Source of the DNA: a virus
Direction: 5' to 3' (one strand)
Virus record (IMG/VR): IMGVR_UViG_3300032893_000171
Coordinates: 1-37,433 of that record
DNA: 37,433 bases
Position 1 is the stretch's first letter. Each line of letters begins with the position of its first letter. A program made the position numbers and the translations under genes. Shown in pieces: positions 2,762 through 27,571 of the stretch. The notes beneath the pieces were generated by a model that saw only the letters and a list, made by a program, of their open reading frames with translations, ran no database searches and was not told the origin of the DNA.

Positions 2762-4957
2762 TTATTGTACCGTGGGCGTCAATCGGCTCCCATCATCTCC
2801 CGTGGCCTTCTGTGCGAAGACCACAGCCGCCGGAGCGGTATTCGGCGGCCCACTTGGATCGTTCAGGTAGCAGATCGCCGCGCTAAAGCTGGCGATGACC
2901 CCTGACCAATAGTTGTAGCAATCCTCTGCCGGGTTGGGGTTGGCGCGGCCATTGTAGCCGGAGACGCTGCCGCCGCTAACATCCGGGCCGATGGGCGGGA
3001 ACGGCTCACAGTTTGGAGTCGCTGGAGTCTTCCACCACGTGAGTCCCGTACCACAGCTGGCTGCCGTCGTCGCCGTCAGATAGAACGAGTTGGGCAAGGT
3101 GTGATTCCCCGGTACCGAATTCGGATAGTAGGGGTCAGTCGTCGGAACCTCGGAGGAATTGAATTGGTTCGCGGCGTTCACCGTATCGTAGTTGCCCCAG
3201 AGCATCGCCGTCTGCGAGACTTCCTTGTCATCATTGATGTTTGAAGATGGTCCCGGCCCGGCATTCGCATCGGGATAGCCGAAGCGGTAGATGTTCGCGT
3301 TGAAGCGTCCGCAACTGGCCGTCGAGCTTGGCGCGATGCAGGCATAGTTGGTCGAGCCCGCCGCGCCCAGCACGTTGCCGATGATGTTGAAGTATCGGTC
3401 ATAGCTGTTGAGGTCAATCGGCGCGGTCGAAGTATCGTTCATAAAGTTGCGGAACAACGCATTCAGCAAGCCGTTCCCGTGGAAGTCGTCCGCCTTGATC
3501 GTGTCGCCGATGTTGCCCTCTACGAGGTTGAACATCGCCGCTTCTTCGTGGAAGTCGAGGCCTGTAGTCCCTGAAGGACAATAGGTGCCGCTATCAGGGC
3601 AGGCCCAGAAGTTGTAGGCGAACACGTCCCCCGTGTTGCAGCAGCTTCCAACAAACGGCGCGTTATTGTCGATGATGATGTTGTTCTGCACCAACAGGTC
3701 ACTGGACCCCCACATCTCGAAGCCGTAGCCCGTGGCAGCCCCGCCACAGCCGCCCGTGCAGGCGTATTGCAGCCAGTTGTTCGCCCAAGTGAGCCTAGCG
3801 GACTGGAAGGCAAGATAATGGTCTCGTGAGCCGGTTTCCTGCGTGCTGACTCCGGTAACCCAGCAGTTCAGGGCGTTGAAAAACCCAATCACGCTGAACA
3901 GGCTGGTTGATCCGGCGATGATCGAGAGGTTCTCCAGACCGCTGTTCACGATGGGCGAGCCCCACCAGCCGAGTTGCGGGCTTCTGCTGCTGGCCCACCA
4001 GTCGCCAACGATGCCGGGGGAGACGGTGACGGTTGTGCCAGAAACATTGGTCACAGTAACAAACTGCTGCTGGCCCGTGCCGCGCGAGCCGTCGATGGCG
4101 ATCTGTGTGCCATTGCCGACGTTGGTATAGACCACGCCGCCTGAGTCGGTCACTGTGTTGGTCACCGTCTGCGGCCAAGTGGGAGCCGAGCCGGAAGTCC
4201 CGGCGGTCGTCACCTGATAGAAGTATCCGCCTGCGTTTCCTGAAGTCGGCTTGATGATGTCGTAGAGCGTGTAAGCGTGCGAGGCAGCGAAGTTTGGAGG
4301 CGCGGCACAAGCTGCCGAGTTGCAAGCGTTAGTAAAATTGCCTCCGGTCGGCACCGTGCTGGTATCGGCCTGCCACAAAATTGCTAGTGTGCCGTTGGTC
4401 AACCCGCTGGGCGTGAAGCCGAGGTTAAGTGTAGTCGCGCCTTGCGTGTAGACGCCCGAGGAACCATTCGTGCCCGTCCAGCTGCCCTGCTGCAAGGCGG
4501 GAACTGAGGCCGGAGCTGGGTTGTAAGGAGGATTCCCCGGCTGATTCGACCCGGAGCCCGAGAACTGCACCACGCAGTTGCCTGCGCCGATGACACAGGA
4601 GGACCCTCCGTTGAAATGGATGATCGTGCTGTTCGCCCCAGCCCCGCGCAGGGCGACATTCGAGACCATTGAGATTCCAGCGTTCAGGTAGAACGTGCCG
4701 CTGCCGAGTTGTACGTAAGTATTGGCGCTGCAAGCTGAAAGAGCGTTGTTAATCGTTGCCGGAGAGGCGTAGGAGCCACTTGTGCCGTAAGCGGCGATGG
4801 TCGAGCCGCACTTTCCCCATGAGCTGTCAGGAATACCGCCAGAGACTCCAGCGCTGCCCCAGTTCGGGCTGTAGCGGTTTGTGGCAAGGATAGTGGATTG
4901 TGCTGAGGCGTTCACCGTCAGAAACAGGCACAACGTAGCAATGACGGCTCTTAGCAT
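2762..4957 (-). CDS. Secreted right-handed beta-helix protein, tailspike/pectate-lyase-like (731 aa)
   Basis: Residues 1-19 form a Sec signal peptide (MLRAVIATLCLFLTVNASAQ) with a basic n-region, hydrophobic core and AxA-type cleavage site before Gln20. Residues about 50-135 carry a pectate-lyase-superfamily beginning: INNALSACSANTYVQLGSGT, then VALRGAGANSTIIHF, the typical first coils of a right-handed beta-helix that starts from an array of possible values. Further helix-like coils with Asn ladders follow (for example LLVQNNIIIDNNAPFVG). Many Cys residues are present, compatible with oxidation outside the cytoplasm. The ATG at 4957 overlaps the previous stop by 7 nt (ATGCTAA). The family includes polysaccharide lyases and hydrolases and phage tailspikes; no catalytic residues can be assigned. 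A signal peptide on a phage tailspike is odd. Confidence 0.75.
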   Translation of the reverse strand: MLRAVIATLCLFLTVNASAQSTILATNRYSPNWGSAGVSGGIPDSSWGKCGSTIAAYGTSGSYASPATINNALSACSANTYVQLGSGTFYLNAGISMVSNVALRGAGANSTIIHFNGGSSCVIGAGNCVVQFSGSGSNQPGNPPYNPAPASVPALQQGSWTGTNGSSGVYTQGATTLNLGFTPSGLTNGTLAILWQADTSTVPTGGNFTNACNSAACAAPPNFAASHAYTLYDIIKPTSGNAGGYFYQVTTAGTSGSAPTWPQTVTNTVTDSGGVVYTNVGNGTQIAIDGSRGTGQQQFVTVTNVSGTTVTVSPGIVGDWWASSRSPQLGWWGSPIVNSGLENLSIIAGSTSLFSVIGFFNALNCWVTGVSTQETGSRDHYLAFQSARLTWANNWLQYACTGGCGGAATGYGFEMWGSSDLLVQNNIIIDNNAPFVGSCCNTGDVFAYNFWACPDSGTYCPSGTTGLDFHEEAAMFNLVEGNIGDTIKADDFHGNGLLNALFRNFMNDTSTAPIDLNSYDRYFNIIGNVLGAAGSTNYACIAPSSTASCGRFNANIYRFGYPDANAGPGPSSNINDDKEVSQTAMLWGNYDTVNAANQFNSSEVPTTDPYYPNSVPGNHTLPNSFYLTATTAASCGTGLTWWKTPATPNCEPFPPIGPDVSGGSVSGYNGRANPNPAEDCYNYWSGVIASFSAAICYLNDPSGPPNTAPAAVVFAQKATGDDGSRLTPTVQ

Positions 4958-5814
4958 GAAATCGTCACCACCACCTGATTGGAAGAAGTCGCTCCGTTAT
5001 CCGTAAGCGCATGGCAGGTGCCATCGAGCGAGAGCGTGCTGCCATTATTCGGCAATGAGCCCCAGATTTCGCCCCACACGTCTGACGCCGCCGTATACGT
5101 CAAGGTCGTGCTGGAGCTGGCAGTGGTCTGCACGTAATATTCGGGATACATCGCTTCATTGGCAATCGTGTCTATCAGCGTTCCGTTCCCAGCGGTTGGA
5201 GTAGCCACGCCGCCGTTGACCATCACTCCGATAATCAGATCCCCGTTCGCCGTGGTCTGAAAGTTGCCGCTGGTCGGATTGGTCGATGTAGTCCCGCCTG
5301 CGGCAGTGTTACCGGGGTTGGCCGTGCCCGTGTCGAGCCCAGTGGAGGTTTTAGCGTTCTTCCATGCCTGGCAGGACATGGCCGCTCCGCCGTGAGCAGA
5401 GGAAAACTGTAGAGTGATGGTATCGGAACTGCCGTGGGCGCTGTTCTGGAAGTAATAGAGCCCCACTCTTTCTGTGAGAGCGGCAGCGGTGAAATTAGTG
5501 ATGTTGACGACCGTGAACGTAGCGCTGTTGAGCGTGTCGGTTACGCTGGTGAACGTCTCCGCGTTGGCGAACTCAAACTCACAGGTAATGGCATCGCCCG
5601 CCGTGATGCCGCCAGCGCCACCTCCCGGCGATGCTAAGTTGTTCCATTTCCCGATGTTTCCAGCGGTGGTCCCAATCGTCCCGTTGTTCCACTTGCCGAC
5701 GTTGCCTGAAGTCGAGCCAACGGTGATCCCGTTCCACTTGGACCAGGTTTGGCCAAGCACAGCAACTGCGCAGATGAAGACGATCCACGCTGTCAGAATT
5801 ATGCGGTCTCTCAT
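4951..5814 (-). CDS. Secreted or membrane-anchored beta-rich protein (287 aa)
   Basis: The open frame extends upstream, but the start is set at ATG 5814, which overlaps the preceding stop as ATGA. Residues 1-21 are a signal peptide (MRDRIILTAWIVFICAVAVLGQ) with basic n-region and long hydrophobic core; cleavage before Gln22 is plausible. Residues about 23-50 contain an internal repeat of WSKWNGITVGSTSGNVGKWN type, two more copies of GKWN with G/T/S spacers. The remainder is a Thr/Ser/Asn-rich beta domain (about 60-287), with alternating hydrophobics and few charges, ending in two Cys residues. It resembles extracellular adhesion or jelly-roll-like domains but I cannot name a family. It lies between two other signal-peptide genes and is translationally coupled to both. 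Confidence 0.7.
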   Translation of the reverse strand: MRDRIILTAWIVFICAVAVLGQTWSKWNGITVGSTSGNVGKWNNGTIGTTAGNIGKWNNLASPGGGAGGITAGDAITCEFEFANAETFTSVTDTLNSATFTVVNITNFTAAALTERVGLYYFQNSAHGSSDTITLQFSSAHGGAAMSCQAWKNAKTSTGLDTGTANPGNTAAGGTTSTNPTSGNFQTTANGDLIIGVMVNGGVATPTAGNGTLIDTIANEAMYPEYYVQTTASSSTTLTYTAASDVWGEIWGSLPNNGSTLSLDGTCHALTDNGATSSNQVVVTISC

Positions 5815-8800
5815 TGGATGGTTCCTACGTCCAGAGAAGGATTGATGATGAGCACGGTCGTGCTTAGAGCTACTCCCATGCGCTGCACGAACTGGCCGGT
5901 GCTCGATGGCGCGGTTGAGGTCACGACTCCAGATGCGGTTGGCACGTAGTACACGGCCCCAGCTGTCAACCCGGTCGTCGTGTAGGTGCCGCGTGTCAGA
6001 CACTGCGTGGTGTTGATGGCCACGCAGACGGCGGGTGCCGTGGCCGAGATCCCACCGCCAGCCTCACTCAAGGTATTCGCCGCGCTGATGTAGTAGGCGT
6101 GGCCAGCGGTCAGACTGGTTGTGACGATCATATTCTGGCCATCGACATAAGCCGTACTCGCCACCTTGGTTGAGTTGTCACCCTGCGCCTGCGTCGTAAC
6201 TGACTGGTTGGCCGTGAACGTCTGCGCCAGCCCAAGCTCAGCCACGACCGCGTTCGACTGAGTCGTGTTCGATGGAAAGACAGCATACGACGTGCCGAGC
6301 GCTCCAGCTGCTGGCGTCACGGCGATCGACCCGGAGGTCGTGTTGTTCAGCGTGAAGCCGCCGACGGACGTGCCGGAAACGCCGAGCGTGATCTTGCTCA
6401 CGCCGTCGCTCGTGATGCCTGCCACCGTGGCCGATCCCTGCGCGCCGCCTGAGCCGAGCACGAAGCCGTTGCTAGCCAGCGGGGAAGCCGAAGTGATGCA
6501 TGTGGCGCAGGCTACCGTGATGGCCCCTGAGGTCACGGTGCCACCAGTGATCGGCGAAGTCGTTGCGATGCTGTTGATCGGCACCGCCCACGAACTCTGC
6601 ATGGTACCGCCACCAGGAGTCGCAGCGGTCAGCACCGCTCCGTTCGATGGGTCGGTGGTCGGCAGTAGAATCCTCGATGGAGTTCCGGCGGCTGCCGCCA
6701 CACCAATCGAGGCATTCCCGCTGGTCGAGCCATCGAGCCGCAAGGTCGAGCTGGCGTTCAGCTCCAGCGTTTGGCCGGTCACGCCCGGCAGGCGCATACG
6801 ATTCCCATTCGAGTCCGCCGCGCTGATCTGATACCCGCCGGGATTCTGCTGCGTGCCGAAGCAGTTCGAGTTGTTCGAGTTGCAGTTGCCGGTCCCGGCG
6901 GCGATCGTGTCGTCTTGGTAGCAGTTGCCTGAGCCCTGGATATAACAGTTGCCGATCTTGATTGACCCGACGTTCGCGCCGAGTTCCGCCCCGACGGTGT
7001 TCGTAATCGTGGCGTCGATGGTATGGACGTTGAGGCTGATGCCAGGCGTGGTGCCAGAGGTGTTGAAGGCTCCGGCGCACTCCGCCACGTCTTCGCAGTG
7101 TAGCTCACCGGCGTCGATTTCCCCTTTGCTGCCATCGACGAACAAGCCGTAGGGGACCAGAGTGCCGTTAGCTCCAGGCGGCGGCGAGTAAAGGTTGATC
7201 GACATGTCGCCGGTAGCACGGATCGCCTCACCGCTGCGACCGTCTATGCCGTAGCCAGCCAGCCGCTGCATGTAGTATGGCCCACTCGCGTTGTTGTCGT
7301 TCGCCAGGTAGAGCGTCCCGGTCTTCGAGTTCACCGAGTTCGGGCCGTGCGAGTAGACCGACGACTCTAGCCCGCCGTTGGTGAGGATGTTGTCGATCGT
7401 CGAGTTCTCCTGATCGCCGCTGCGGTAGACCGCCTGCGTGGCGATGTCGCGGGCGTCGATAACCATATCCCGCACAATCGAGAACGAGGTGAAGCCGCCA
7501 GCGCCGTCTTCGCCAAGGCCGACCAAGGGGGCCGAGGAGTCTTCGAGTCGCGGCTGGTTTCCGTTGGTCGTGTAAGCCGTCAGGTTGGCGGTCGTCGCAA
7601 TCGGGCAGTAACTGATCCCGCTCAGGTTGACCCCGCTCGCGCCGCAGTAGTTGGTGATTGTCTGTACCGTGTAGGGGTCCGTGCCCTTTGAGGCCAACAG
7701 GAGGTAGCCGACCGGGGAGATGTAGTTAGTGGTCGAGCCGACCTCTTGCCAGCAGACCTGCCCGCTCGTCAGCCCTGAGCACGCCGGGTGGCCCGTAGCG
7801 TCACCGGATTGCGCGCCAGCGGTCGTCGCGGCTGCACAGTTGATCGAAGTACCGGCGTTCAGCGCCACGTAAAGATGCGTCGAGTTCATTATGACGAATC
7901 GGGGCTGCCCGGAGCCTCCGTAGGCCGTCGAGGTCGCGCAGGTGGGATAGGCTGGTACGGATAGCGATGCGTAGGTGATGTTGCCGCTGGAGGAGACCGA
8001 CAAGCTGGTCTGGGCGGTCCCTGGCAGGCTCACGCCAGCCAGTCCATAGACGGTAGAGATGTTGCCGACGTTGACCATCACGACCGTCGCGCCGGAGGTC
8101 GTCTGCCCGCCGACCGAGGAGTTCCACGAGGGCGTGCCGCTGCCGGTGGTCCCGGCGACGATCACCACTTCGGTGCAGGCCGAGCCACTACAGTTAGTCG
8201 TCGCGTCGGTGAAGAACTGGCCAGCTACGACCGCCGTCGAAGTCGGGAAGCTGGGGGCGCTAGCCGTGGCTATCGAGTCCGGGCCGGTGTTCAGCTGGAC
8301 GACCCACTCGAACTCCGTGTTGTAGGTGCCCGAGGCCAGTGACCCGCTGGTGTGGGCCGTCCCTACGGGCTGCGGAGGCGCGGGTAGCTGCGTCGGGAAG
8401 TAGAGGCCGCTGCATTGGGTATCCGCCTGACAGGCCGCCCACCGCGTGCCGCTCGTGGAGGCCGTCCGATCGGAGTTGAGGGGCCGGAATGCTCCGCTGA
8501 ACTGGTCATTGCCGTCGAGGATCGGCACCGTAGTCCACCATGTGCCCTTGCCGAACTTGATCGTGTAGTTGCGCGAGCCGAGCAGCGGCCAGTATTGCCA
8601 TACCTCGCCCGTGTCGTCTTCGATCTCGCAGCCCTGTTTGGTGCCTGAGGCCCCGAAGCACTGTGCAGAGTAGGCCGCCTGTGCCAAGGTCGTGTTGACC
8701 ACGCCATCGACGTAGGCTTTGGTGGCGATTGCCGGAGGGTAAATCGCCCCGGGAAACTGCGTCGGGTTGGTGAACGAGATCGTCGGCGTGGTCGTCGAGT

Positions 8801-10538
8801 TCGCGACCGCCAGCTCGTTCGCCGTGCCAGACACGCTGGTCACGGTTCCAGTCGAAGACGCCGTCCACGACGCAACGCCGGAAGAGTTCTCGCTCAGTAT
8901 CTGCGTACCAGAGTTGTTTCCTGCTATGGTCGTCCACACGCTGCCGTTCCAGAGCATCAAGTCTCCAGGCCGCGTCGGCGTCGGAGCCAGAGAAGCGAAG
9001 GCGAGGCTGTTGCAGCCAAAAGCCCCAGTCGAACTGGTGAAGCTGAGCGCCCCGGTGGGGCAGTTGCCGAAAGCCCCGAAGTCTGGCAGCCGCGAGACCA
9101 GCAGGTTCGTATTGTCGGACCAATGGAAGGCCGTCCACATCGACGGGATCAGCAGCGAGGACCCGCCGTTGATGTTGAAGCCACTCGCGTTCTCCGTGAC
9201 CGCCCCAGTGCCGATGTTCTTGATGATGTAGGGGAAGTTGTTACCGAAGCCGGAAGTCGATGGGTTGGTGGCCGTGTAGGTCTGGGCACTGGAGTTGCTG
9301 GCGGTGATGAGCGTTGTGCGATCGGTCAGCTGGACGGTGTAGGTCGTTCCGGTCTGGGCATTCACCGGCACACCCATCAGGCCCCATGTCTCGGCTCCAG
9401 CTACACCACCGGAGGGAGTGGACATCAGCACCTGTGGCACTCCGTTGGGAGTGGTCGGCGCGGAGAGCGCGGTAGTGGCTCCTGAAGCTCCGCCGACGAT
9501 CATCTGATAGGGGATCGTCATCGGGTTCGTTAGCGAGGCAGTCCACGTCATTGCTGAGGAGCCGCTTTGGGATGTCAGCACCTGTCCCGCAGCGCCCGGA
9601 GTTGCGGGGACGATGAAGTTATAGGGGCTGGTCGCTGCGTTATTCACCAGCGTGACCGTGGCCCCGCCGCCATTGCCATTAGCTAGGCCCAAGGTGCCCG
9701 CTGTCGAACCATTGGTGCCTAGCGTCGGCGTGGCGGTGAACGCCGGACTCGATCCGGCCAGCACCTGTCCGGCGGCTCCGGTGATCGAGATGGCTCCGCC
9801 GCTGGAGATCGCTACCGGAGAGGTCCCGCTTAGAGCTCCTCCGCTGGTGGTCGTGGCGCAAGTGGCGCACCCGATGGTCCCGGTGGTGGTAATGGTGCCC
9901 CCGGTCAGGGGGGACGAGATAGTGAGGCTGGTGACCGTGCCGGTGCCTGCCGAGTGGCACGCGCCGTCGGCCCCGAGGTACTGCGTGCCGGAGCAGCCCG
10001 AGAATAGGCTTGTGATGTCGGTGACGCCGCCGATCGAGGGCACGCCGGTGCCGGTGGTATTCTTCAGGAGACCCGTGCCGAGACCTGCTAAGGATGTCCC
10101 GTTGAGTCGCACGACGGTCACGGCATTCGATCCTGAGGTCGTGGCATCGCCCGACAGCTCGGCGCTGGTGATCGCCCCGGTCGAGGTCGTGACCCGGATG
10201 ATGCCTGAGACCAAGGCTCCCGGCAGCTTCAGGTTAGCCACGGAGAACGCGGACAGGTCCATGACCTCGGTGCCTGCCGCCACCCCGTTGAAGGTCGAGC
10301 CCGAGCCCATGGTGAAGGTCGAGGACGTGTTGGTCCCAGTGCCGACCGTGGCGAAGGTAGGCGACCCTGAGCAGGCACCGCCGGAGTCCTGAATAGAGCT
10401 GGCGGTGGCGAAAGCCGCGCAGTGACCAGCCGTGATAGCCCCGGAGACCGTGATCCCCCCAGAGCCTCCGCTTGAGGACTGGGCAGCGGCTATGGCGGCG
10501 AACATCAGGATAGCGAGACCAACGCGAAGGGTTTTCAT
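5811..10538 (-). CDS. Giant secreted tail-fibre-like adhesin with beta-helix (1575 aa)
   Basis: Residues 1-19 form a signal peptide (MKTLRVGLAILMFAAIAAAQ). The mature part is overwhelmingly Gly/Thr/Ser/Ala/Asn with few charges. GTVTS-type fibre repeats occur near residues 200 and 580. The segment near 620-690 (GEVWQYWPLLGSRNYTIKFG) resembles the beginning of a pectate-lyase-like fold, and about residues 1000-1270 contain helical-coil repeats with many Cys residues. Near 1460 an NSTKVASTAYVDG motif matches motifs in the other fibre (25224-26543). Such composition is typical of phage tail fibres, yet the signal peptide is typical of exported adhesins. The ATG at 10538 overlaps the previous stop (ATGA) and has no clear Shine-Dalgarno, suggesting translational coupling. 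Receptor or matrix binding is inferred. Confidence 0.75.
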   Translation of the reverse strand: MKTLRVGLAILMFAAIAAAQSSSGGSGGITVSGAITAGHCAAFATASSIQDSGGACSGSPTFATVGTGTNTSSTFTMGSGSTFNGVAAGTEVMDLSAFSVANLKLPGALVSGIIRVTTSTGAITSAELSGDATTSGSNAVTVVRLNGTSLAGLGTGLLKNTTGTGVPSIGGVTDITSLFSGCSGTQYLGADGACHSAGTGTVTSLTISSPLTGGTITTTGTIGCATCATTTSGGALSGTSPVAISSGGAISITGAAGQVLAGSSPAFTATPTLGTNGSTAGTLGLANGNGGGATVTLVNNAATSPYNFIVPATPGAAGQVLTSQSGSSAMTWTASLTNPMTIPYQMIVGGASGATTALSAPTTPNGVPQVLMSTPSGGVAGAETWGLMGVPVNAQTGTTYTVQLTDRTTLITASNSSAQTYTATNPSTSGFGNNFPYIIKNIGTGAVTENASGFNINGGSSLLIPSMWTAFHWSDNTNLLVSRLPDFGAFGNCPTGALSFTSSTGAFGCNSLAFASLAPTPTRPGDLMLWNGSVWTTIAGNNSGTQILSENSSGVASWTASSTGTVTSVSGTANELAVANSTTTPTISFTNPTQFPGAIYPPAIATKAYVDGVVNTTLAQAAYSAQCFGASGTKQGCEIEDDTGEVWQYWPLLGSRNYTIKFGKGTWWTTVPILDGNDQFSGAFRPLNSDRTASTSGTRWAACQADTQCSGLYFPTQLPAPPQPVGTAHTSGSLASGTYNTEFEWVVQLNTGPDSIATASAPSFPTSTAVVAGQFFTDATTNCSGSACTEVVIVAGTTGSGTPSWNSSVGGQTTSGATVVMVNVGNISTVYGLAGVSLPGTAQTSLSVSSSGNITYASLSVPAYPTCATSTAYGGSGQPRFVIMNSTHLYVALNAGTSINCAAATTAGAQSGDATGHPACSGLTSGQVCWQEVGSTTNYISPVGYLLLASKGTDPYTVQTITNYCGASGVNLSGISYCPIATTANLTAYTTNGNQPRLEDSSAPLVGLGEDGAGGFTSFSIVRDMVIDARDIATQAVYRSGDQENSTIDNILTNGGLESSVYSHGPNSVNSKTGTLYLANDNNASGPYYMQRLAGYGIDGRSGEAIRATGDMSINLYSPPPGANGTLVPYGLFVDGSKGEIDAGELHCEDVAECAGAFNTSGTTPGISLNVHTIDATITNTVGAELGANVGSIKIGNCYIQGSGNCYQDDTIAAGTGNCNSNNSNCFGTQQNPGGYQISAADSNGNRMRLPGVTGQTLELNASSTLRLDGSTSGNASIGVAAAAGTPSRILLPTTDPSNGAVLTAATPGGGTMQSSWAVPINSIATTSPITGGTVTSGAITVACATCITSASPLASNGFVLGSGGAQGSATVAGITSDGVSKITLGVSGTSVGGFTLNNTTSGSIAVTPAAGALGTSYAVFPSNTTQSNAVVAELGLAQTFTANQSVTTQAQGDNSTKVASTAYVDGQNMIVTTSLTAGHAYYISAANTLSEAGGGISATAPAVCVAINTTQCLTRGTYTTTGLTAGAVYYVPTASGVVTSTAPSSTGQFVQRMGVALSTTVLIINPSLDVGTIQ

Positions 10539-10981
10539 GCGATTAGCAACGTCACAAGCGCCGCGTCATTGGCGTTGTCGGCGTCAATGTAGTAGCGATA
10601 AGGGGAGAACTTGTTGCGTTCGAGTGGCGCGGAGGACAGAAACAGGTTGGCCCCCGGAGCCAGGGTGAATATCATCGCCCCGTAGTCGTCCCGGTTGCCC
10701 GCTCCCTGCACGCCCTTGCGCACGATGTAGATATTCCCGGTGTTATTCTGGACCCCGTGTGAGGCTCCGGCCTTCACGGCCTGAAAGAATATCTGCTGCA
10801 CCGAGGGGGAGTATTCGTACTCGCCAGCCGTGCCCGCCGTGGTAGCGGTGTTCGGGGCATTGACGCTCGCCGAATCCACGAGAGACATGATGCTCACGGG
10901 GGTCCCCGGCGAGGTCACCACGATCAGCCCTAATGGCCAATCCGGTCCATATTCATCCTGCATCACGCTCTGTGTCGCCAT
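10535..10981 (-). CDS. Small virion protein (148 aa)
   Basis: No family recognised. Two ATG codons stand in tandem (10984 and 10981). An AAGGAGG motif lies only one base before the first, so the second gives the better spacing and I use it. The product (from MATQSVMQDEYGPDWP) is a balanced globular protein with beta-rich character: a Thr/Ala-rich loop (about 50-65), then SPSVQQIFFQAVKAG and a C-terminal part containing FSPYRYYIDADNANDAALVT. There is no signal peptide, in contrast to the next gene, whose start overlaps this stop by 4 nt. Its position just before the giant adhesin suggests a baseplate, adaptor or chaperone role for the fibre; that is inference. Confidence 0.65.
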   Translation of the reverse strand: MATQSVMQDEYGPDWPLGLIVVTSPGTPVSIMSLVDSASVNAPNTATTAGTAGEYEYSPSVQQIFFQAVKAGASHGVQNNTGNIYIVRKGVQGAGNRDDYGAMIFTLAPGANLFLSSAPLERNKFSPYRYYIDADNANDAALVTLLIA

Positions 10982-15476: not shown

Positions 15477-18400
15477 CTAGACCGCAGCTCGGTCGCCACG
15501 CACGCCGCCGAGTTGTTTGTAGTTCAAGTATCCACTGCTCCGCCCCCAGTTGCCAACCAAAACTTCACAGTCGTTCCAGTAAATCTGGTGGGGCGAGGCA
15601 CTCAGAGATTTGAAAAAGTATAGCTGTCCTTTGTTGAACGTGAGGACCACGAGCTGCTTCTGATACGCGCCGCCGGTTGCAGGCAGCGTTACAGGCGATG
15701 GAGAGGTACCATCGAACGCCGTGATCGTCAGGGTCACAGGCTGTACGGCGGTATAGGCGATCACCACTCTCTGGATATGTGAATACCCGTTCAACTCGAA
15801 ACTTGTACCCTGCGTCTGCCATGTCTCGGCCGCCTCGGGAGTCGGCTGTGAAATCCATTCCACGTCGAAGAAGCGCCACGGGATGGAGTCCGTGGGCTCG
15901 ATGCGCACCAGATGGGCAATGAACGGCGTGTTGAACGAGTAGGCTTTCGACTGCTCGCCGTTGTGCTGCACCACGGGCGTGAAGGCGTGGGTCGTCAGGG
16001 TGTCGGCATCGCGCACGGCCAGCCCCTTGACGGTGTTGAAGGTGTCGCAGTGGAGGATGAATCCCTGCCACCAGGCCGCCGGGGCCGCCGTGTCGCCGTC
16101 GCCTGTCTGGTACCAGTCGGTGAAGCGGTCCACGATGGTTTCGGGCTTGGGGAGGAAGCTCGGCTGCCACACGTGGAGCTTGGTGGGCGACGAGATGACC
16201 GTGAAGTCGTCGGTCCAGGTTGCCATCAAGCCGAGGAAGTCCGAGAGTAGACCGCCACCAAGGGAGATCGCGTACTGCTGACGGGTGCTCGACTGCGGGA
16301 CGGTAGCGGCAGGGCCAAGGGGATTGCCGAACGCCATGGGAGTGACTTGCAGGTTCGAGGTCACGGGCGTGCAGTCGAGCCACAGGTCGCCCCATTGCTC
16401 CCCGGCACGCACGTCGCCCCCGTCCCATTCCATGGTGGCTACCACGCAGGAGATCGGCGTCGAGAGGTCGTTGTGGCGGTCCTGCTGCTGGGCCACGATG
16501 CCGTTGGTCGTGCCGTACATCAGCATCCCGTAGAGGGCGGTGCTCGTCTGCACCGTTCCCTCCTGCTGCTCGGGGTGGTAGACGGTAGACACGGCGGTCC
16601 CGTAGGCATCGAGCGACCAGGCTTTGCGTTTGCGGTCGTAGACCAGCGTGTGGTAGACGCCTGAGGAATCCTGATAGGTGGCGTAAAGGAAGCCGTTGCC
16701 GGTTTCGAGCCGGAAGCTGCCCGCACGCGAGTAGTCCGGCGGCTGGTAGGTCACTGAGCCGTAGGTGATGGACTCGCCAGCCACGCCTTCGTGGGGGAAC
16801 AGGTTATAGAGATCCGCGTCGGTCAGCGATCCCTCGGCGGTATCCCAGATGCCGTCCTTCGCCCACCAAGAGATCGAGGCTCCGTCGGTGCAGTGGCCGA
16901 AGGGGGCGGCGAGGCCACGCGCCACGGGTTGCTGCACGAAGGAGTAGCGGTCTATGCCATTCGGCTGGAAGTACATCCGCCACCAGCGCTCGGTGGACGC
17001 CACGTAGCTCACGCCGTCCATGATCTCTCCGCCCAAGAGAGGTTCTGAGGACGGCACGACCTCTTGGTTATATTTGTCCGGCGCTGAATCAGGTGCGTTG
17101 GCTTTCGATTCGTAGACGAAGCCGGGGCGCAGGGAATCCCCACAGGCGAATACCGTCCCGTTGGCGTCCGGCCCCCACATATAAGGCAGACGCTGTTGGG
17201 CCAGCGCAGGCTCGTAGATCGCCAGCGGGACGTTCGACTGCGCGCCTGCGTTCTCGACGAACTGGAACAGGTAGTTGCTGCCCGAGATCAGCGTAGGCCG
17301 CGTCTGGAGGGTATAGACGTTGGTCCCTCCGATCTTCACGAAGTTGCCGGGGAGATAGCGTAGCGCGTTGGTCGCGCCCGAGATCGTCACTTGCGCGATG
17401 GTCCCGCAGACGGCGGTGGCTGTGACGTTCAGCGGCAAGTCGATCGAGGGCCAGGGCTGGTAGTTGTCGAACTCCAGGGCGTCGCCAGCCAAGGCCGAGG
17501 CATCGGAGTAGTTGTCGAAGAAGGTCGCGGAGGTCGAAGGTGCCTGCCCGATGTAGCGCCACGAAGTCACGCTGCCGCCATAGCGGAACACATCCCAGGT
17601 GTCGATCTGCGGGTCGTAGGCTGCCGACGGGAGGTAAACGGTAGCCTGCTGGCGGCGGGGGTTGATACCGTAGCGGGTGGCCGGCGAGGGATTGCCCTTG
17701 GCTCCCGTGACGCTCGACCGGGGGCGCACGCGGTAGAGGTAAGGCGCGCCGGAGGGTCCCACGTCAGGCGAGTACCCACCCTGCACGTAGACCGAGTTGA
17801 ACGCCACGTTCAGCGGCCCCGAGGCGTTGATGAGCAGCCGCATGGAGTTGAAGTTCTCTAGGGTCCGCGACTGGTCGTTACCTACCCGAGTGAGTTCCGT
17901 CAGGGCGAACGACACCTCCGACCACTGGCTGGTCCCGGTGACCGACTGCGCTGAAGAGGACGTGGGACCCTGGTTGGCGGTCTCCGCCGCCTGCTCCTCG
18001 TCGATCTCTGCCCGCTGCGCTACGATCTGCGCGACGCCCAGCTGGGTCAGGCCGTTGGACACGCCGAGGGCAATGTCATTGGGCCGGATGGCTTTGAAGT
18101 AGAAGTTCTGGTCGAAGCTGGAGTCGCCTACGTCGAGCAGGATTTTGGCCTCGACGAGGTTATCGAGGTTGTCGATGTTGAGCGACAGGTGGAGGTAGTC
18201 CTGCGGCTGGGCCGTGGCCACGGCGAACGGGTTGACCGTCTGCGGAGAGGTCAGGGTGCCGATGCCAGCGCTGACCGAGAACTGGGCGTCGGCTGAGGAG
18301 ATGGCCTGGCCCACGGCAGCCCCCGGCAGGAACAGCTGAATCCCCGGCGCACCCTTGAGAGTGTCGGAGGTGGTATGCGCCCCGGCGGTCGAGGTCGTGA

Positions 18401-19985
18401 AGCAGACGGTGCCGTCGGGCCCGGTCTCGACATCCCAGACGTAGCACACTTCGGAGCCGATCTGGACGAGGGCTCCTCGGCGCAGGGAGGCCACCAGTGC
18501 CTCCTCGTAGATCGAGGTATCGTCGATGCCGGGACCGGAGCCGAGCACCGAGGGCACCACCACGCACTTGCCCGTGGTGCCCGAGAAGTATTGGATCGCC
18601 GAGATCGGCACCGAGGGCGGGATCGGCGGGAACACGTCCTGCACGGTGAAGACCTCTCCATGGATGACCACCTCCATGCCGCGCTGGTAGGAGCCGATGC
18701 CGGTCGCCTGCTTAAAGATCCCGCTCGCGCCGTTGTAGACGCAGAGGCTCTGGTTGTCCACCCACGAGGAGTAGTCGATCTCGATCGGGTAGGCACCCGC
18801 CGCCGAGAAGCTGACCACGAAGGTCTCGTCCCACGCCGCGCCTCCGCCGGGGCCGGATTCGTTAGTGCCCGCCACGCCGCCGTTGGTGAACTGGTAGCCG
18901 TTGACCGCCGTCTGCGTGTGATTGAAGAACGGGTCGGTGCGGTTGCCTGAGACCAGAGACGCCCCGGAGATGGCGAACACGATCCCGTCGTCGTGGTTGA
19001 TGGTGATCGTGTAACTGCCGGGGGCGGGCACGAACAGGCTGGCCACGACCACCATGTCCCAGTCCTGCGTGGCCCCCGACCAAGGCTGGAAGTAGCCGGT
19101 GATGGTGCCGCTGGCGTTGACCGAGGCCCACTCGATCGGCTGTACGTTAGGGTTGGTCGTGCCGTTGTACTGCGGCGGGTTGAAGAGCAGCGAGGTCCCG
19201 GAGGAGGTAGCCGACGCCGAGGCCGTCGAGAGCGGGTAGTAGCGCCCGAAGGCTCCCTTCTCGTTCGAGAGCCTTGGCCAGAAGTAGGCGACGACCGAGC
19301 CTGAGAGGTAGACCCCGGCGGCGAGGTTCGAGCCCCCAGTGACCTGCACGGTGGTCATGCCGGAGCCTGTCGGGTCGCTGAACACCCCCTGCACGCTGTC
19401 GGTGATGCGGTTGCCTACGGTAAAGGCGCTGGCCGTGCCGCCCGTGGTGTAGCTGCCGCCTGAGGGTTCGCCCATGGTAGCCGTGAAGAACTGGGAGACG
19501 CTGGCGTCCGGGGCCGTCTGAGGCTCGGCGATGCCTGCCGCTTGCTGGGTCACGGCATTGGAAGCCGAGGGGGCGGAGAACTTCTGGTAGTCCTGCGCGG
19601 TCGCCACGTACATGTATGGGTTGGGAGACTCGTCAGGCCGGAAGGGCAGCATCGAGGCCCCCAGAGGATGGCCGCCGCTCGACGCCATGGAGCCCACTTG
19701 GACTCCCGTGTCGAGCCAGATGCGGTCGGAGGCATCGCGGGCGAGGAACCGGGGACGGTCATCGGAGCCCAAGGTGGCGTAGGCCCGCAGGTCAGTGACC
19801 GCCGAGCCTCCAGTGGTGAACGACTGCGCCATGCCGGGGCGGGTGCGGAAGGAATTGTCGCTGACGGTACGGACGTTCTGGAGTGCCGGGTACTTGTTCG
19901 GCGGCAGGGCGTCGGGCACGGAGTTCAGCTTGACGCCGCCGTTCTGGTAGCGGAAGCCCTCTTTGGGCCGGGAATAGTCGGCCAT
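15477..19985 (-). CDS. Nozzle-like tail protein with PA14-like insert (1502 aa)
   Basis: A very long virion protein. The N-terminus (RYQNGGVKLNSVPDALPPNK then YPALQNVRTVSDNSFRTRPGM) has the style of podovirus nozzle/tail tubular proteins and other tail-hub proteins: a repeated SxPDALPxxxxxxLxNV...RPGM start used in beta-propeller-like tail proteins. Residues about 285-415 (EWASVNASGTITGYFQPWSG to VDNQSLCVYNG) look like a PA14/GLEYA-type sugar-binding domain with INHDDGIVFAI. A charged helix (AQRAEIDEEQAAETANQ) lies near 650. The C-terminal half contains blade-like segments with Trp (WWRMYFQPNGIDRYSF, IWDTAEGSLTDADLYN) and ends in beta-rich material. AGGAGGTGA precedes the ATG; the ATG overlaps the previous stop (TAATG). 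T7 gp12 is much shorter, so the assignment is tentative. Confidence 0.55.
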   Translation of the reverse strand: MADYSRPKEGFRYQNGGVKLNSVPDALPPNKYPALQNVRTVSDNSFRTRPGMAQSFTTGGSAVTDLRAYATLGSDDRPRFLARDASDRIWLDTGVQVGSMASSGGHPLGASMLPFRPDESPNPYMYVATAQDYQKFSAPSASNAVTQQAAGIAEPQTAPDASVSQFFTATMGEPSGGSYTTGGTASAFTVGNRITDSVQGVFSDPTGSGMTTVQVTGGSNLAAGVYLSGSVVAYFWPRLSNEKGAFGRYYPLSTASASATSSGTSLLFNPPQYNGTTNPNVQPIEWASVNASGTITGYFQPWSGATQDWDMVVVASLFVPAPGSYTITINHDDGIVFAISGASLVSGNRTDPFFNHTQTAVNGYQFTNGGVAGTNESGPGGGAAWDETFVVSFSAAGAYPIEIDYSSWVDNQSLCVYNGASGIFKQATGIGSYQRGMEVVIHGEVFTVQDVFPPIPPSVPISAIQYFSGTTGKCVVVPSVLGSGPGIDDTSIYEEALVASLRRGALVQIGSEVCYVWDVETGPDGTVCFTTSTAGAHTTSDTLKGAPGIQLFLPGAAVGQAISSADAQFSVSAGIGTLTSPQTVNPFAVATAQPQDYLHLSLNIDNLDNLVEAKILLDVGDSSFDQNFYFKAIRPNDIALGVSNGLTQLGVAQIVAQRAEIDEEQAAETANQGPTSSSAQSVTGTSQWSEVSFALTELTRVGNDQSRTLENFNSMRLLINASGPLNVAFNSVYVQGGYSPDVGPSGAPYLYRVRPRSSVTGAKGNPSPATRYGINPRRQQATVYLPSAAYDPQIDTWDVFRYGGSVTSWRYIGQAPSTSATFFDNYSDASALAGDALEFDNYQPWPSIDLPLNVTATAVCGTIAQVTISGATNALRYLPGNFVKIGGTNVYTLQTRPTLISGSNYLFQFVENAGAQSNVPLAIYEPALAQQRLPYMWGPDANGTVFACGDSLRPGFVYESKANAPDSAPDKYNQEVVPSSEPLLGGEIMDGVSYVASTERWWRMYFQPNGIDRYSFVQQPVARGLAAPFGHCTDGASISWWAKDGIWDTAEGSLTDADLYNLFPHEGVAGESITYGSVTYQPPDYSRAGSFRLETGNGFLYATYQDSSGVYHTLVYDRKRKAWSLDAYGTAVSTVYHPEQQEGTVQTSTALYGMLMYGTTNGIVAQQQDRHNDLSTPISCVVATMEWDGGDVRAGEQWGDLWLDCTPVTSNLQVTPMAFGNPLGPAATVPQSSTRQQYAISLGGGLLSDFLGLMATWTDDFTVISSPTKLHVWQPSFLPKPETIVDRFTDWYQTGDGDTAAPAAWWQGFILHCDTFNTVKGLAVRDADTLTTHAFTPVVQHNGEQSKAYSFNTPFIAHLVRIEPTDSIPWRFFDVEWISQPTPEAAETWQTQGTSFELNGYSHIQRVVIAYTAVQPVTLTITAFDGTSPSPVTLPATGGAYQKQLVVLTFNKGQLYFFKSLSASPHQIYWNDCEVLVGNWGRSSGYLNYKQLGGVRGDRAAV

Positions 19986-21811
19986 TACTGGTCACCTCCC
20001 GCTGCGGGGTCGGCGTCGGCGCTGTATCGGGGATTCATGTCCGCCTCCCGCTGGCTCAGGCCATAGAGGATCTTCGTGAACTCTCCCTGCTCGGCCAGCT
20101 TCGAGGAGTATAGCGCGGCCAGCTGCATGAAGCGCTGGAGAAGTGGCTCGGTGGCGAGGAACTCCGCGCCTCCCATCTTGAACGACGCCAGATGCTGCGC
20201 GTAGTCGATCATCACGTCGTAGACATCCTGCGTCAGGTTGAGGCAGTCGGTCGAATTGACCGGCACCGGAGCGTTCTCAACCACCGTCAGGGTGAGCGAG
20301 TAGTCGCCGGTGTCAGGCGGCGGGGAGAGCGCGACGAGGTTGAGCCCGGCGGTCAACATGGTCCCCGGTGCTCCCTGCGGCTGCCCCTGCCAGGTCGGCG
20401 TGTAGAGGTCTGCGGACCTCACGGCGTCGATCTGGAGCGGGACGTTTGAGGCCCGAGCGGCGAGCACCGCTGAGGCCGCAGCCAGCAGGGAGAGGCCTTG
20501 GCGATAGCGACCCTCACAATACTTCGCCCGCAGGAGGTCCTTGGCGTTCGACTCCCGGCCAAGGAGATCCGCCAAGGCCCCCCACTTGAGCACCCACGTC
20601 CAGTCGTCGGGCACCAGGAACGTGCTGGAGGAGAGGAGGGTAAGGGTGGCTCCGGCGTTCAGGGTGAGCAGGTCGTACTGGCCGGGCAGGGGAGGCACGT
20701 CGGCGTCGAAGGATAGCAAGGGCTCGGTCGATACCCGATAAAGGCTGGGCACACCCGGAGGCTGGACCGTGTAGCTCTGGTCGTAGGCCTGAATGCCCCA
20801 AGTGTCGTCCTGGAACATCGGGGACACTGCGCCCGAGCCTGCGACGTAGGCTACGCGCCGGAGGTCCAGCACGGTGTTCGGCAGGTAGATGCGATCCGGC
20901 GTCGCGCTGGTCACGCTGTGGGCCACGTTGCAGCCGGTGACACCCAGCATCTCGTTGTGGCGACGCTGCACGGCGTTGAGGATGTCGTCGAGGGAGAACT
21001 GCGCGGAGCCCGTCCACGGCCCCGAGCCGACAGCCGGCTCCAGCAGGTGGTACTCGATGATCGTGTAGAGATAGGAGTCGGTGACGGTCAGAGGCCGCAG
21101 GGTGTTCGGGGCCGTCGTCTGGCTGGTGATGTCGTAGAACACCGTCCCCTGCGTCGAGAGCATAGTGAAGTCGCCGCGCCAATAGGAGGCGAGGGCGTTC
21201 CAGGTGCGAAAGGCCTCTTGGAAGTAGTAGATCAGTTCCGCCAGCGACCAGAATTGCATGTTGGGGTCGTAGAGTCGGTTGGCCAGCTCCTGAAGGGCAA
21301 AGGAGAACGGGAACGGGCAGGGCTGCGTCCGCACCACCTGGATGTAAGGCGCGGAGGTCGAGCCGAGGAAGTTCGTGTCGCCGCCGTAGGTAGCTACGAT
21401 CGAGTCATTGCCCTGCGGCAGGAACGACGTGGTGACCGAGGCCTGGGACTGGCCGCCGCCGGAGGATGCCAGGGTAGCCGTGCCGATCGGCTGGCCATTC
21501 GAGGTGAAGGTTACGGTCCCAGTGGGGGATTGCGGCCCGGAGCCTCCCTGGACGGTGGCCGTGAGGGTCACCGCCTGACCGTAGTTCGAGGGGTTCAGGG
21601 AGCTGGAGACCACGTTGGTCGTGGCCTGCGGGCCTCCGAGGGACACCCAGAAGACGAGGGAGAGTTGATTAAGCCGGGTGTTGCCGCCGCCCGACTTCAG
21701 CGACGGAGCAGCGATGACCAGTGATTCCTGATTCAGCCGGGTGTTGCCGCCTGAGGAGGTCAGTTCGCTTGTGGCGATGACCAACGAGTCCTGGTTGAGT
21801 CGAACGGACAT
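19985..21811 (-). CDS. Ig-domain virion protein with N-terminal triple repeat (608 aa)
   Basis: Residues 4-57 hold three near-identical units, VRLNQDSLVIATSELTSSGG / TRLNQESLVIAAPSLKSGGG / TRLNQLSLVFWVSLGG, each about 20 residues. A bacterial Ig-like domain follows (about 65-160: VSSSLNPSNYGQAVTLTATV then GTVTFTSNGQPIGTATL and NDSIVATYGGDTNF), of the Big_3-type found in adhesins and tail proteins. From about residue 175 a helical segment occurs (FSLAELIYYFQEAFRTWN-like, actually WSLAELIYYFQEAFRTWNAL) followed by a mixed domain that I do not recognise, with several acidic-aromatic motifs. It lies between the lectin-like protein and the 1502-aa protein, with a short gap and TAATG overlap, so it is part of the tail operon. 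Probably a neck or fibre-attachment protein; the Ig domain may bind surface sugars. Confidence 0.6.
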   Translation of the reverse strand: MSVRLNQDSLVIATSELTSSGGNTRLNQESLVIAAPSLKSGGGNTRLNQLSLVFWVSLGGPQATTNVVSSSLNPSNYGQAVTLTATVQGGSGPQSPTGTVTFTSNGQPIGTATLASSGGGQSQASVTTSFLPQGNDSIVATYGGDTNFLGSTSAPYIQVVRTQPCPFPFSFALQELANRLYDPNMQFWSLAELIYYFQEAFRTWNALASYWRGDFTMLSTQGTVFYDITSQTTAPNTLRPLTVTDSYLYTIIEYHLLEPAVGSGPWTGSAQFSLDDILNAVQRRHNEMLGVTGCNVAHSVTSATPDRIYLPNTVLDLRRVAYVAGSGAVSPMFQDDTWGIQAYDQSYTVQPPGVPSLYRVSTEPLLSFDADVPPLPGQYDLLTLNAGATLTLLSSSTFLVPDDWTWVLKWGALADLLGRESNAKDLLRAKYCEGRYRQGLSLLAAASAVLAARASNVPLQIDAVRSADLYTPTWQGQPQGAPGTMLTAGLNLVALSPPPDTGDYSLTLTVVENAPVPVNSTDCLNLTQDVYDVMIDYAQHLASFKMGGAEFLATEPLLQRFMQLAALYSSKLAEQGEFTKILYGLSQREADMNPRYSADADPAAGGDQ

Positions 21812-25223: not shown

Positions 25224-26543
25224 CTACTGTAGAGTAATCAGCGTGTAGTTGATATACAGAACTGCCGTGCCGTTCCCGAGCGTCATGTTCGACCCCCCGG
25301 CGGCCCCGATCGTGAACGGCTCGTTCTCGACCAGTGTACGTGCGCCGTTGGCCGTCGTGCCATTGAAAAACTTGAACTGGTCCGAGGTCTGGTCAAAGAA
25401 CCCCGCCTCGGAGAAGGTGAGCGCAAAGGCCGTGGCGGCGTTGTTGTAGTCGAGCTTGATGGAGTCGCCGTTGATGGTGTAGGCCGTCGAGTTGTACTTG
25501 TAGTGCAACATGCAGTCGAGGAGGGACAAGGCGAAGCCCGCGCCGGGCGCGGCGATCAGGGTCACAGGCGTAGCGTGTAGGTTGAGCAGTTGCGACGAGG
25601 ATAATTGCACGGCCACGAAGATCGTCGGCGAGAGGCCGGCCTGCTGCACGAATTGGGTCGTGGCTAGCTTCGAGGACGAGTCGCCGATCGAGGGCGTGGG
25701 GGCGGTAGGGGTGCCGGTGAGGGCCGGAGAGGCGAGGGGAGCCGCACCGGTAATGTTGGCTACCGCGTAGTCGCCCGTCTGAGGGACTACCGCCCCCGAG
25801 CGCCCGTTGAAGGTCACCACACCCGTCGAGGGCAATGCCGCCTGCACGAAGGCCGTCGTAGCCAGCTTGGTCGTGTTATCGCCGAAGGTCGGAGTGGGAG
25901 CCGCTGGGGTCCCGGTGAAGGTCGGAGAGGCCAGAGGGGCGGCACCTGTGACCTGCGCGACCGCGTAGTCGCCGGTCTGGGCCGTGACGGCCCCGGTGCG
26001 GCTGAATACCGAGGACACTGGCACCGAGGGGAGGGCTGCAGCCACGAATGCCGTGGTCGCCAGTTGCGTGGTGTTGGTCCCCGGAGAGGCCGTTGGGGCC
26101 GTCGGGACCCCCGTGAGCGCGGGGGAAGCCAGAGGAGCCGCGCCGACCACCTGCGCTGCCGTGTAGTCCCCGGTCTGGGCGATCACCGTGCCGGTACGGC
26201 CAAAGACGGAGTTCACCGTGCCACCACCGCCCGCCGGATCGTTCAGCAGGATGTCGGAGATCAGGATGGGGGAGGCCGGGCCGGACCCAGCGTTATTCGA
26301 TAGCACCACGTCGTAGCGGTTGTTAGCCGCGTAGAACGTGAACTGCCCGTTGGCGTTAGCCGTGAACGGGTTGGCCAAGGGGGTGACGCCGTTGTCGGAG
26401 TAGATCGTGGCCAAGCCCCCGCCGTGGAGGTTGACCTGCACGAAGCAGCCGGGATAGGAGCCTTCGACGACCGTAGTCGAAGAGAGACCGGCGGTGACCA
26501 CCTGCACATCGCCCTGCTGTGCGAATCCCGTGTAGGCCTGCAT
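25224..26543 (-). CDS. Tail fibre protein with three repeats (439 aa)
   Basis: The start is ATG 26543 (TAATG with the previous stop); upstream in-frame sequence is shadow. Residues about 35-90 (LATIYSDNGVTPLANPFTAN then GQFTFYAANNRYDVVLS) are a common N-terminal tail-fibre domain in phages that attaches the fibre to the virion. Three repeats of about 63 residues follow (about 110-300), each with VxSVFxRTGxVxAQTGDYxx, then APLASPxxTGxPxAPTP and TTKLATTAFVxAALPS. The C-terminal part (about 310-439) is a beta domain with DQTSDQFKFFNGTTANG, probably the receptor-binding tip. The matching repeat DNA is nearly tandem (25640-26220) and may recombine. The gene lies immediately after the connector-like gene and before the holin, a usual position for a podovirus fibre. 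Confidence 0.75.
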   Translation of the reverse strand: MQAYTGFAQQGDVQVVTAGLSSTTVVEGSYPGCFVQVNLHGGGLATIYSDNGVTPLANPFTANANGQFTFYAANNRYDVVLSNNAGSGPASPILISDILLNDPAGGGGTVNSVFGRTGTVIAQTGDYTAAQVVGAAPLASPALTGVPTAPTASPGTNTTQLATTAFVAAALPSVPVSSVFSRTGAVTAQTGDYAVAQVTGAAPLASPTFTGTPAAPTPTFGDNTTKLATTAFVQAALPSTGVVTFNGRSGAVVPQTGDYAVANITGAAPLASPALTGTPTAPTPSIGDSSSKLATTQFVQQAGLSPTIFVAVQLSSSQLLNLHATPVTLIAAPGAGFALSLLDCMLHYKYNSTAYTINGDSIKLDYNNAATAFALTFSEAGFFDQTSDQFKFFNGTTANGARTLVENEPFTIGAAGGSNMTLGNGTAVLYINYTLITLQ

Positions 26544-27571
26544 TATTGCACCCCCGAGTAGCCGGGCGACGCTGAGTTGCCCAGACTGTTGTACCACGCC
26601 ATCCACTTGGCGTAGTTGGCGCGGGTGCGGAGGGCGAACCAGTTGTCCACGCGGTCCCGGTCCATCTGGCGGTACTTGCGAAACAGGTCCGAGTATTCTT
26701 TGTTGGCCGCTCCCATCAGGAACTTGAAGTCCGGCCCCGTGGCGCGTGGGGTGAGGTCCTTGTTGGCCTCCGCCCACTCGTAGGCATAGTATTTCGCGCG
26801 GGCGATCACCACGTCCTCGCCGATCACGTAGGGGAGAGTGTCGGTTGGGGCCGAAAGGTCAGGGCCGAAGCGAATGCCATAGAGCTGATAGTTGACGTTG
26901 AAGGTCGGCAGGCCCCAGAGCATGTAGAGCAAGGAGCCGTAGGAGGGCGAGGCCGGATTCTGGTCGTCCTGATAGGGGACCACATCCGACGGAATGCCAT
27001 ACCAGGTCCGCTGCGGATCCATCACGTCGATGTCGCGCATCTGGTAGCGCTCGGTGTAGAGGTCGATGAAGTTCATCATGTCGCGGACGGAGATCCAGGT
27101 GCGGAAGTCCCGGATCGGGGAGTTGCCCACGACAGGGGGCAGGTAGCACTGGAAGATGATGTACTGGGAGTTGGTCACCGAGGGCTCGCCGTACCAGCGG
27201 TCGAGTACCAGCTGGCCAAGGCCACCCGGAGCGCCAGTCGGGTTGTAGCCCCAGATGTTATAGATGCCACCGCTGGCAATGCGGAACTGACGCTGGGTGA
27301 TGAGGGAGTAAGGTTGGGTCGATGCGAGGGCGTTGACTGCGGTGGTAGCGGTGGCATCCAGGTTGACGAGGTTCGAGCCTTGGGTGGCGGTAGCGACTCC
27401 CGTAGAGGCCAGTTGCGGAGGGACGATCCACTGACCCTCAAAGAGCTGGAACGACCACAGGGATTGCCGCCGGAGGTCTTTGTAGGCGCGGTTGATGAGG
27501 GTCTTGGTGTAGGAGAAGGCGAGCTTCGGCACGGCTCCCCGCAGCTCGGCCATCATGTCGATCAGGGCCAT
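26543..27571 (-). CDS. Head-tail connector/adaptor candidate (342 aa)
   Basis: A mostly soluble protein starting MALIDMMAELRGAVPKLAFS, with YTKTLINRAYKDLRRQSLWS (about 20-40) as an amphipathic helical opening typical of podovirus head-tail adaptors such as T7 gp11 or P22 gp4-type proteins. It continues with a mixed domain containing Trp/Tyr-rich motifs (WYGIPSDVVPYQDDQ, YVIGEDVVIARAKYYAYEWA). It is first after the capsid terminator and is followed by the tail fibre, which is the usual gene order for an adaptor. TAGGAG about 9 nt before the ATG is the Shine-Dalgarno. At 342 residues it is longer than known small adaptors. The role is inferred from context and helical start. Confidence 0.5.
   Translation of the reverse strand: MALIDMMAELRGAVPKLAFSYTKTLINRAYKDLRRQSLWSFQLFEGQWIVPPQLASTGVATATQGSNLVNLDATATTAVNALASTQPYSLITQRQFRIASGGIYNIWGYNPTGAPGGLGQLVLDRWYGEPSVTNSQYIIFQCYLPPVVGNSPIRDFRTWISVRDMMNFIDLYTERYQMRDIDVMDPQRTWYGIPSDVVPYQDDQNPASPSYGSLLYMLWGLPTFNVNYQLYGIRFGPDLSAPTDTLPYVIGEDVVIARAKYYAYEWAEANKDLTPRATGPDFKFLMGAANKEYSDLFRKYRQMDRDRVDNWFALRTRANYAKWMAWYNSLGNSASPGYSGVQ

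Follow-up and report, generated by a model that had tools for sequence, protein, structure and literature searches.

Phage tail fibres and tailspikes are treated as cytoplasmic proteins, and a signal peptide (SP) is unexpected on them. In the stretch of DNA analysed here (the window, a complete IMG/VR record of 37,433 bases), three consecutive genes for fibre-like or beta-helical proteins each begin with a predicted SP. This raises the question of what such proteins do once exported, and whether they become parts of the virion or act free of it.

Three coupled genes with predicted export signals

The window carries the structural half of a podovirus-like soil phage, with genes for the terminase (37162-34904), the portal (33865-31784), the major capsid protein, tail proteins and a lytic transglycosylase-type protein. 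The record is probably a fragment, since most of its genes are structural and it falls about 25 kb short of a close relative (G001, 62 kb).

The three-gene block lies on the minus strand. The first gene (5811-10538) codes for a fibre-like protein of 1575 aa with tail-fibre-type repeats (ATKAYVDG, STKVASTAYVDG) and 30 Cys in its mature part. The second (4951-5814) codes for a protein of 287 aa with 4 Cys in the mature part, and the third (2762-4957) for a member of a pectin-lyase-like beta-helix family with 731 aa and 19 mature Cys. Counted over the whole proteins, Cys numbers are 30/1575, 5/287, and 20/731. The predicted SPs were read directly as MKTLRVGLAILMFAAIAAA (10482-10538, cleavage before Q20), MRDRIILTAWIVFICAVAVLG (5752-5814, cleavage before Q22), and MLRAVIATLCLFLTVNASA (4901-4957, cleavage before Q20), all on the minus strand. 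Each consists of a positive n-region, an uncharged hydrophobic core, and small residues at -3/-1, after which Gln follows, and each passes our heuristic Sec-signal scorer. Adjacent genes are joined by ATGA at 5811-5814 and by 7 overlapping nt at 4951-4957, and a further ATGA couples the first gene to the gene upstream (stop at 10535). The three coupled genes with a Sec SP and Gln, as described in the initial annotation, are thus all found in the window.

The block is enclosed by two conserved genes without SP, both on the minus strand: one before it (10535-10981, 148 aa, 87-88% identical in G001) and one closing it (2128-2757, 209 aa, 75-76% identical in G001). As had been claimed, SPs are also absent from the fibre encoded at 25224-26543, from the Gly-rich protein, and from the other tail genes of the window. 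Three further products may be mentioned. The SP-like start MKRLLALLLLSLSLAGC of the gene at 23946-23599 is that of a lipoprotein with a weak match to an Rz-like spanin family, and its product is likely an outer-membrane spanin. The tail-type protein encoded at 19985-21811 has an N-terminal bacterial Ig-like domain (Big_3_5, E=1e-20), which looks variable, as the alignment with G001 begins only at residue 179. The conserved tail protein of 1502 aa (15477-19985) has a sub-threshold PA14 match (E=0.026).

Signal peptides among the tail genes of related phages

Scans of INPHARED phages and IMG/VR with the proteins of the first and third genes (tblastn and pattern scans) gave no matches, and relatives were reached by other routes. 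Starting from the portal gene, we found contigs G001 and G002, whose portals are 82-84% identical to that of the window. The two anchor genes that flank the block, together with a capsid profile, yielded six further genomes (G003-G008), and an alignment of three members served for the family of the third gene.

In G001, a block of these three genes is likewise enclosed by the two conserved genes. The G001 counterpart of the third gene is 28% identical, the match of the first gene is confined to a stretch of 155 residues, and for the second gene no significant similarity to the window was detected. All three G001 proteins have an SP before Gln although their mature parts have diverged. The same block is present in G003, so that the three-gene block with SPs, for which the initial annotation had suggested a search, recurs in two metagenomic phages. 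SP-bearing positional homologues of the first gene occur in both G001 and G003, and one of the second gene in G001. G004-G008 have other SP blocks; across these genomes, SPs are kept while the mature parts diverge or are unrelated. SP genes are found mainly in two places among the tail genes, slot A directly after the conserved tail gene at 26543-27571 of the window and slot B at or near the conserved gene before the block. Related phages have three to five SP genes each among the tail genes, differing in number and location from genome to genome, and within the slots that were read, SPs occur jointly on most neighbouring genes. Such joint SPs would fit partners that need one shared compartment. 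Pfam and PHROGs returned almost nothing for the SP proteins. An SP-less gene amid the tail genes of G001 (L004:17877-19850) reads like a glycoside hydrolase (CPWNEFTR); the same assignment for a gene of G004 (11491-9836) was rejected, as it had no Pfam or PDB support.

The nearest isolates are the Tunturiibacter phages Tunturi_1 and Tunturi_2 (Acidobacteriota host; PMC11924767), which present the same phenomenon with five SP genes after a tail gene. In Tunturi_2, SPs follow the tail gene gp11 on gp12, gp13, gp14, gp16, and gp17. The annotated starts already include the SP for all but gp14, where it is clearest with an internal TTG start coupled to gp13. These genes are annotated as hypothetical, tail fiber, tail spike, pectin lyase or virion structural protein; the main text of that paper does not mention signal peptides, mass spectrometry or SDS-PAGE, and no virion proteomics was found. 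Between the two phages, gp12 differs by 13 synonymous and no non-synonymous codon changes. That such fibres are a general effect of the host was rejected: the fibres of Tunturi_3, an unrelated podovirus infecting the same strain, are ordinary and SP-less, so that the host does not force the SP solution. That fibres of this kind are normally SP-less, as the initial annotation had assumed, holds in control phages too. We infer the hosts of the metagenomic contigs, that of the window phage included: a capsid search of GTDB genomes found no prophage, nor did a host emerge from a scan with a domain of Tunturi gp17.

SPs were called with a home-made heuristic scorer (positive n-region, uncharged core, small residues at -3/-1) on gene starts that likewise came from a caller of our own. 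The SP set, put together by manual curation, comprises 37 proteins, of which seven clade genomes contribute 30, Tunturi_2 five, and the siphovirus Tunturi_4 two. The scorer passes 34 of the 37; when their N-termini are shuffled the pass rate is about 6%, and among the other genes of the seven clade genomes it is 7 of 278. Gln is found at an allowed +1 site in 31/37, and 32/37 of the genes start within 15 nt of the upstream stop codon. Granulicella is presumably in the same family as Tunturiibacter (Acidobacteriaceae). On the Granulicella tundricola plasmid pACIX901 (L064-L072, NC_015057), +1 Gln is allowed in 25 of 38 putative secreted proteins, a count obtained with a slightly different site rule from that used for the phage proteins, which suggests that Acidobacteriaceae follow a Q-rule like that of Bacteroidetes. 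The Q-rule has been described for Bacteroidetes in a paper that does not mention Acidobacteria (PMC5837995), and Q-rule phage proteins are known from Porphyromonas gingivalis phages (PMC10367356; again PMC10653852). The cleavage sites of the block proteins are thus of the type of the inferred host, and export of the SP proteins by Sec is predicted with high confidence.

The initial annotation had pointed to many Cys residues in the two longer proteins, and this feature proved to extend across the clade. After residue 25, the median Cys content is 2.16% in SP proteins compared to 0.89% in other genes and 0.47% in SP-less virion-type proteins. The difference between SP proteins and SP-less virion-type proteins has p=1e-15. 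The Cys count of the mature part is even in 31/36 SP proteins (binomial p=6e-6), compared to 61/101 controls (Fisher p=0.003); the p-values for even counts are optimistic, as members of the SP set are partly homologous. The mature proteins look extracytoplasmic and are putatively disulfide-bonded. The exported beta-helical or fibre-like set proposed in the initial annotation is well supported by the SPs conserved in other phages, the host-type +1 Gln, and the enriched and even Cys; what the set consists of had been left open there and is taken up below.

A scan of IMG/VR with three proteins of the type of the third gene returned 43 loci, G001 and G008 among them. The 42 readable homologues belong mostly to unrelated phages: the clade capsid profile has a match in 3 of 28 tested contigs and none in the other 25. 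Of these homologues, 34/42 pass the SP scorer, 33 with Gln at +1; two more (L076, L077) have SPs by eye, and several other failures come from genes truncated at the end of a contig, so that truncation or a miss of the scorer accounts for most of them. Often, two to four SP genes are adjacent. G+C ranges from 39% to 68% in these phages, so that not all of them need infect Acidobacteriota. The family profile (A8) matches the putative pectin lyase PDB 7chu (E=4e-5 over 63 positions), and Beta_helix and Pect-lyase are matched by single members only. On these profile matches, the family is a pectin-lyase-like right-handed beta-helix.

The tailspike domain and the proposed fate of the exported proteins

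The conserved tail gene at 26543-27571 (minus strand) is the positional counterpart of Tunturi gp11, an annotated tail protein. Directly after it follows the SP-less tail fibre of the window (25224-26543, minus strand), the counterpart of SP-bearing fibres in the same position of related phages. By homology, about residues 1-101 of this fibre (26240-26543, minus strand) form a tailspike-type N-terminal domain that is common to a slot A fibre in each genome. The domain begins at the initiator Met in G000-G003 and lies directly behind an SP in G004, G005, G006, G007, G008, and Tunturi (gp12); in G007, this fibre comes second in the slot, and the heuristic scorer misses its long SP. Versions preceded by an SP have a second Cys near the mature N-terminus which is absent from SP-less versions.

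The same domain starts SP-less tailspikes of Serratia, Erwinia, E. coli, and Klebsiella phages (among them the Serratia phage MTx tailspike and the Erwinia phage Cronus EPS depolymerase), and the best four matches of its profile in PDB, all weak, are to the tail spike entries 9vyg and 9vyh. Such tailspikes share this N-terminal domain with the slot A fibres, and they resemble the proteins studied here in a location by tail genes and in the beta-helix-like fold of the third gene's family. They begin with the domain and are made and assembled in the cytoplasm, whereas the related phages have an SP before the domain and a Cys-rich mature part. In the capsid tree, the SP-less fibres fall into a single group (support 0.999), which makes one loss of the SP the simplest reading; the terminase tree, with Tunturi as root, does not speak against it. 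The window fibre appears to have lost its SP.

Because the same slot in related phages carries a tailspike domain behind an SP, exported receptor-binding proteins are likelier than unrelated secreted enzymes or decoys. No large SP-less fibre was seen in the tail-gene region of G006, G007, and Tunturi_2, so that their receptor-binding proteins would be either the exported ones or a conserved protein of 1300-1500 aa. Gene order and coupling place the block proteins with the virion genes. We consider a receptor-binding or polysaccharide-related function likely. For the full explanation, that these are deliberately exported tail-fibre/tailspike-type proteins binding receptors or acting on polysaccharides, the case seems to us evenly balanced, and attachment to the virion is put forward tentatively, as a step that falls somewhat short of an even chance. 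The block proteins would be made together with the late structural genes and carried over the inner membrane by the host Sec pathway. Signal peptidase I would cut them in the host's own style, with Gln at +1, and they would fold outside the cytoplasm with disulfide bonds and act there on polysaccharides of the host surface or the matrix. Most likely, at least the fibre with the anchor would join virions at cell lysis, together with its partners. With more reserve we suggest that a widespread group of tailed phages, probably mostly on Acidobacteriota, may have Sec-exported tailspikes which are disulfide-bonded in the periplasm and mounted, at or after lysis, on virions assembled in the cytoplasm. 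We know of no mechanism by which a cytoplasm-assembled tailed phage picks up periplasmic fibres, and tailed phages are not known to send host-binding proteins out of the cytoplasm.

The main rival, possible but in our view rather doubtful, accepts the same SP, Cys, and +1 Gln evidence and holds that the proteins are never virion parts: adhesins that are released or held on the surface, enzymes that degrade the matrix, or decoys that mask receptors would, for example, clear polysaccharide for the progeny or block receptors on the infected cell and its debris. The pectin-lyase-like fold of the third gene's family and, by profile match, of Tunturi gp14 is compatible with such roles, and no tailspike anchor domain was detected in the window's three SP proteins. 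A tailspike domain kept behind the SP is unexpected for a free protein, however, and the virions of G006, G007, and Tunturi_2 would be left without an obvious receptor-binding protein save the conserved large one.

Two other explanations we regard as improbable. The N-termini might stay uncleaved and serve the virion, in membrane contact during DNA delivery or in trimer packing, without ever entering Sec. Tail proteins may indeed contact membranes, and SP-like starts have been predicted on capsid proteins, where they are thought to be removed by the prohead protease (PMC10367356), but the complete n-h-c form, the prevalence of host-type +1 Gln, and the even Cys numbers argue for cleavage and export, and the SP may be absent while the domain that follows it stays. 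Alternatively, host-derived cargo genes (morons) could benefit a lysogen. The SP itself is a feature of Lom-like lysogenic conversion, and the varying number and place of the SP genes would suit morons, yet these genes are coupled within the late gene order and have tail-fibre-type domains, and no integrase was noticed in the clade genomes, in a look that covered regions other than the early genes. An annotation or assembly artefact with true starts downstream of the hydrophobic segment is very improbable even for metagenomic phages with unverified starts, as the starts overlap upstream stops (ATGA), annotated Tunturi starts include the SP, and homologues at most of the 43 loci repeat it at the same boundary, contrary to the downstream starts that the initial annotation had named as an argument against export.

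Relation to known systems

The initial annotation had considered the block a candidate for an undescribed system. This stands in part: Q-rule SP proteins adapted to the host, with Gln exposed by cleavage, have been reported from P. gingivalis phages (Nixviridae; PMC10367356), but these are proteins of Bacteroidota phages with unknown function which have not been described as tail fibres or spikes. They are also a precedent for exported proteins that act free of the virion, as is lambda Lom, an SP protein encoded between tail spike and tail fibre genes (PMC12309495), although Lom is an outer-membrane beta-barrel and the block proteins belong to fibre and beta-helix families. Secretory endolysins (Oenococcus phage fOg44 Lys44; PMC6116005) likewise represent a normally SP-less class that gained Sec export and has SP-less relatives; unlike a receptor-binding protein, Lys44 is a lysis enzyme. 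In the open PMC literature, no SP-bearing sets of tail fibres or spikes were found, and "undescribed" applies within this scope.

If the exported proteins do join virions, a branch of tailed-phage morphogenesis takes place outside the cytoplasm, with receptor-binding proteins stabilised by disulfides, and SPs would help to find the host-range proteins of soil phages. Should they act free of the virion, soil would be receiving large sets of surface-active proteins secreted by phages. Both readings can be tested directly with the cultivated Tunturi_1 and Tunturi_2, which grow on Tunturiibacter psychrotolerans X5P2. A further observation concerns Tunturi_4, which has two SP genes: the product of gp114 (L046:37019-39325) is about 49% identical over 650 aa to that of gp17 of the podovirus Tunturi_2 (L042:18902-22744), each with its own SP. 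To judge from the sequences, this likeness is an exchange between unrelated phages of one host genus.
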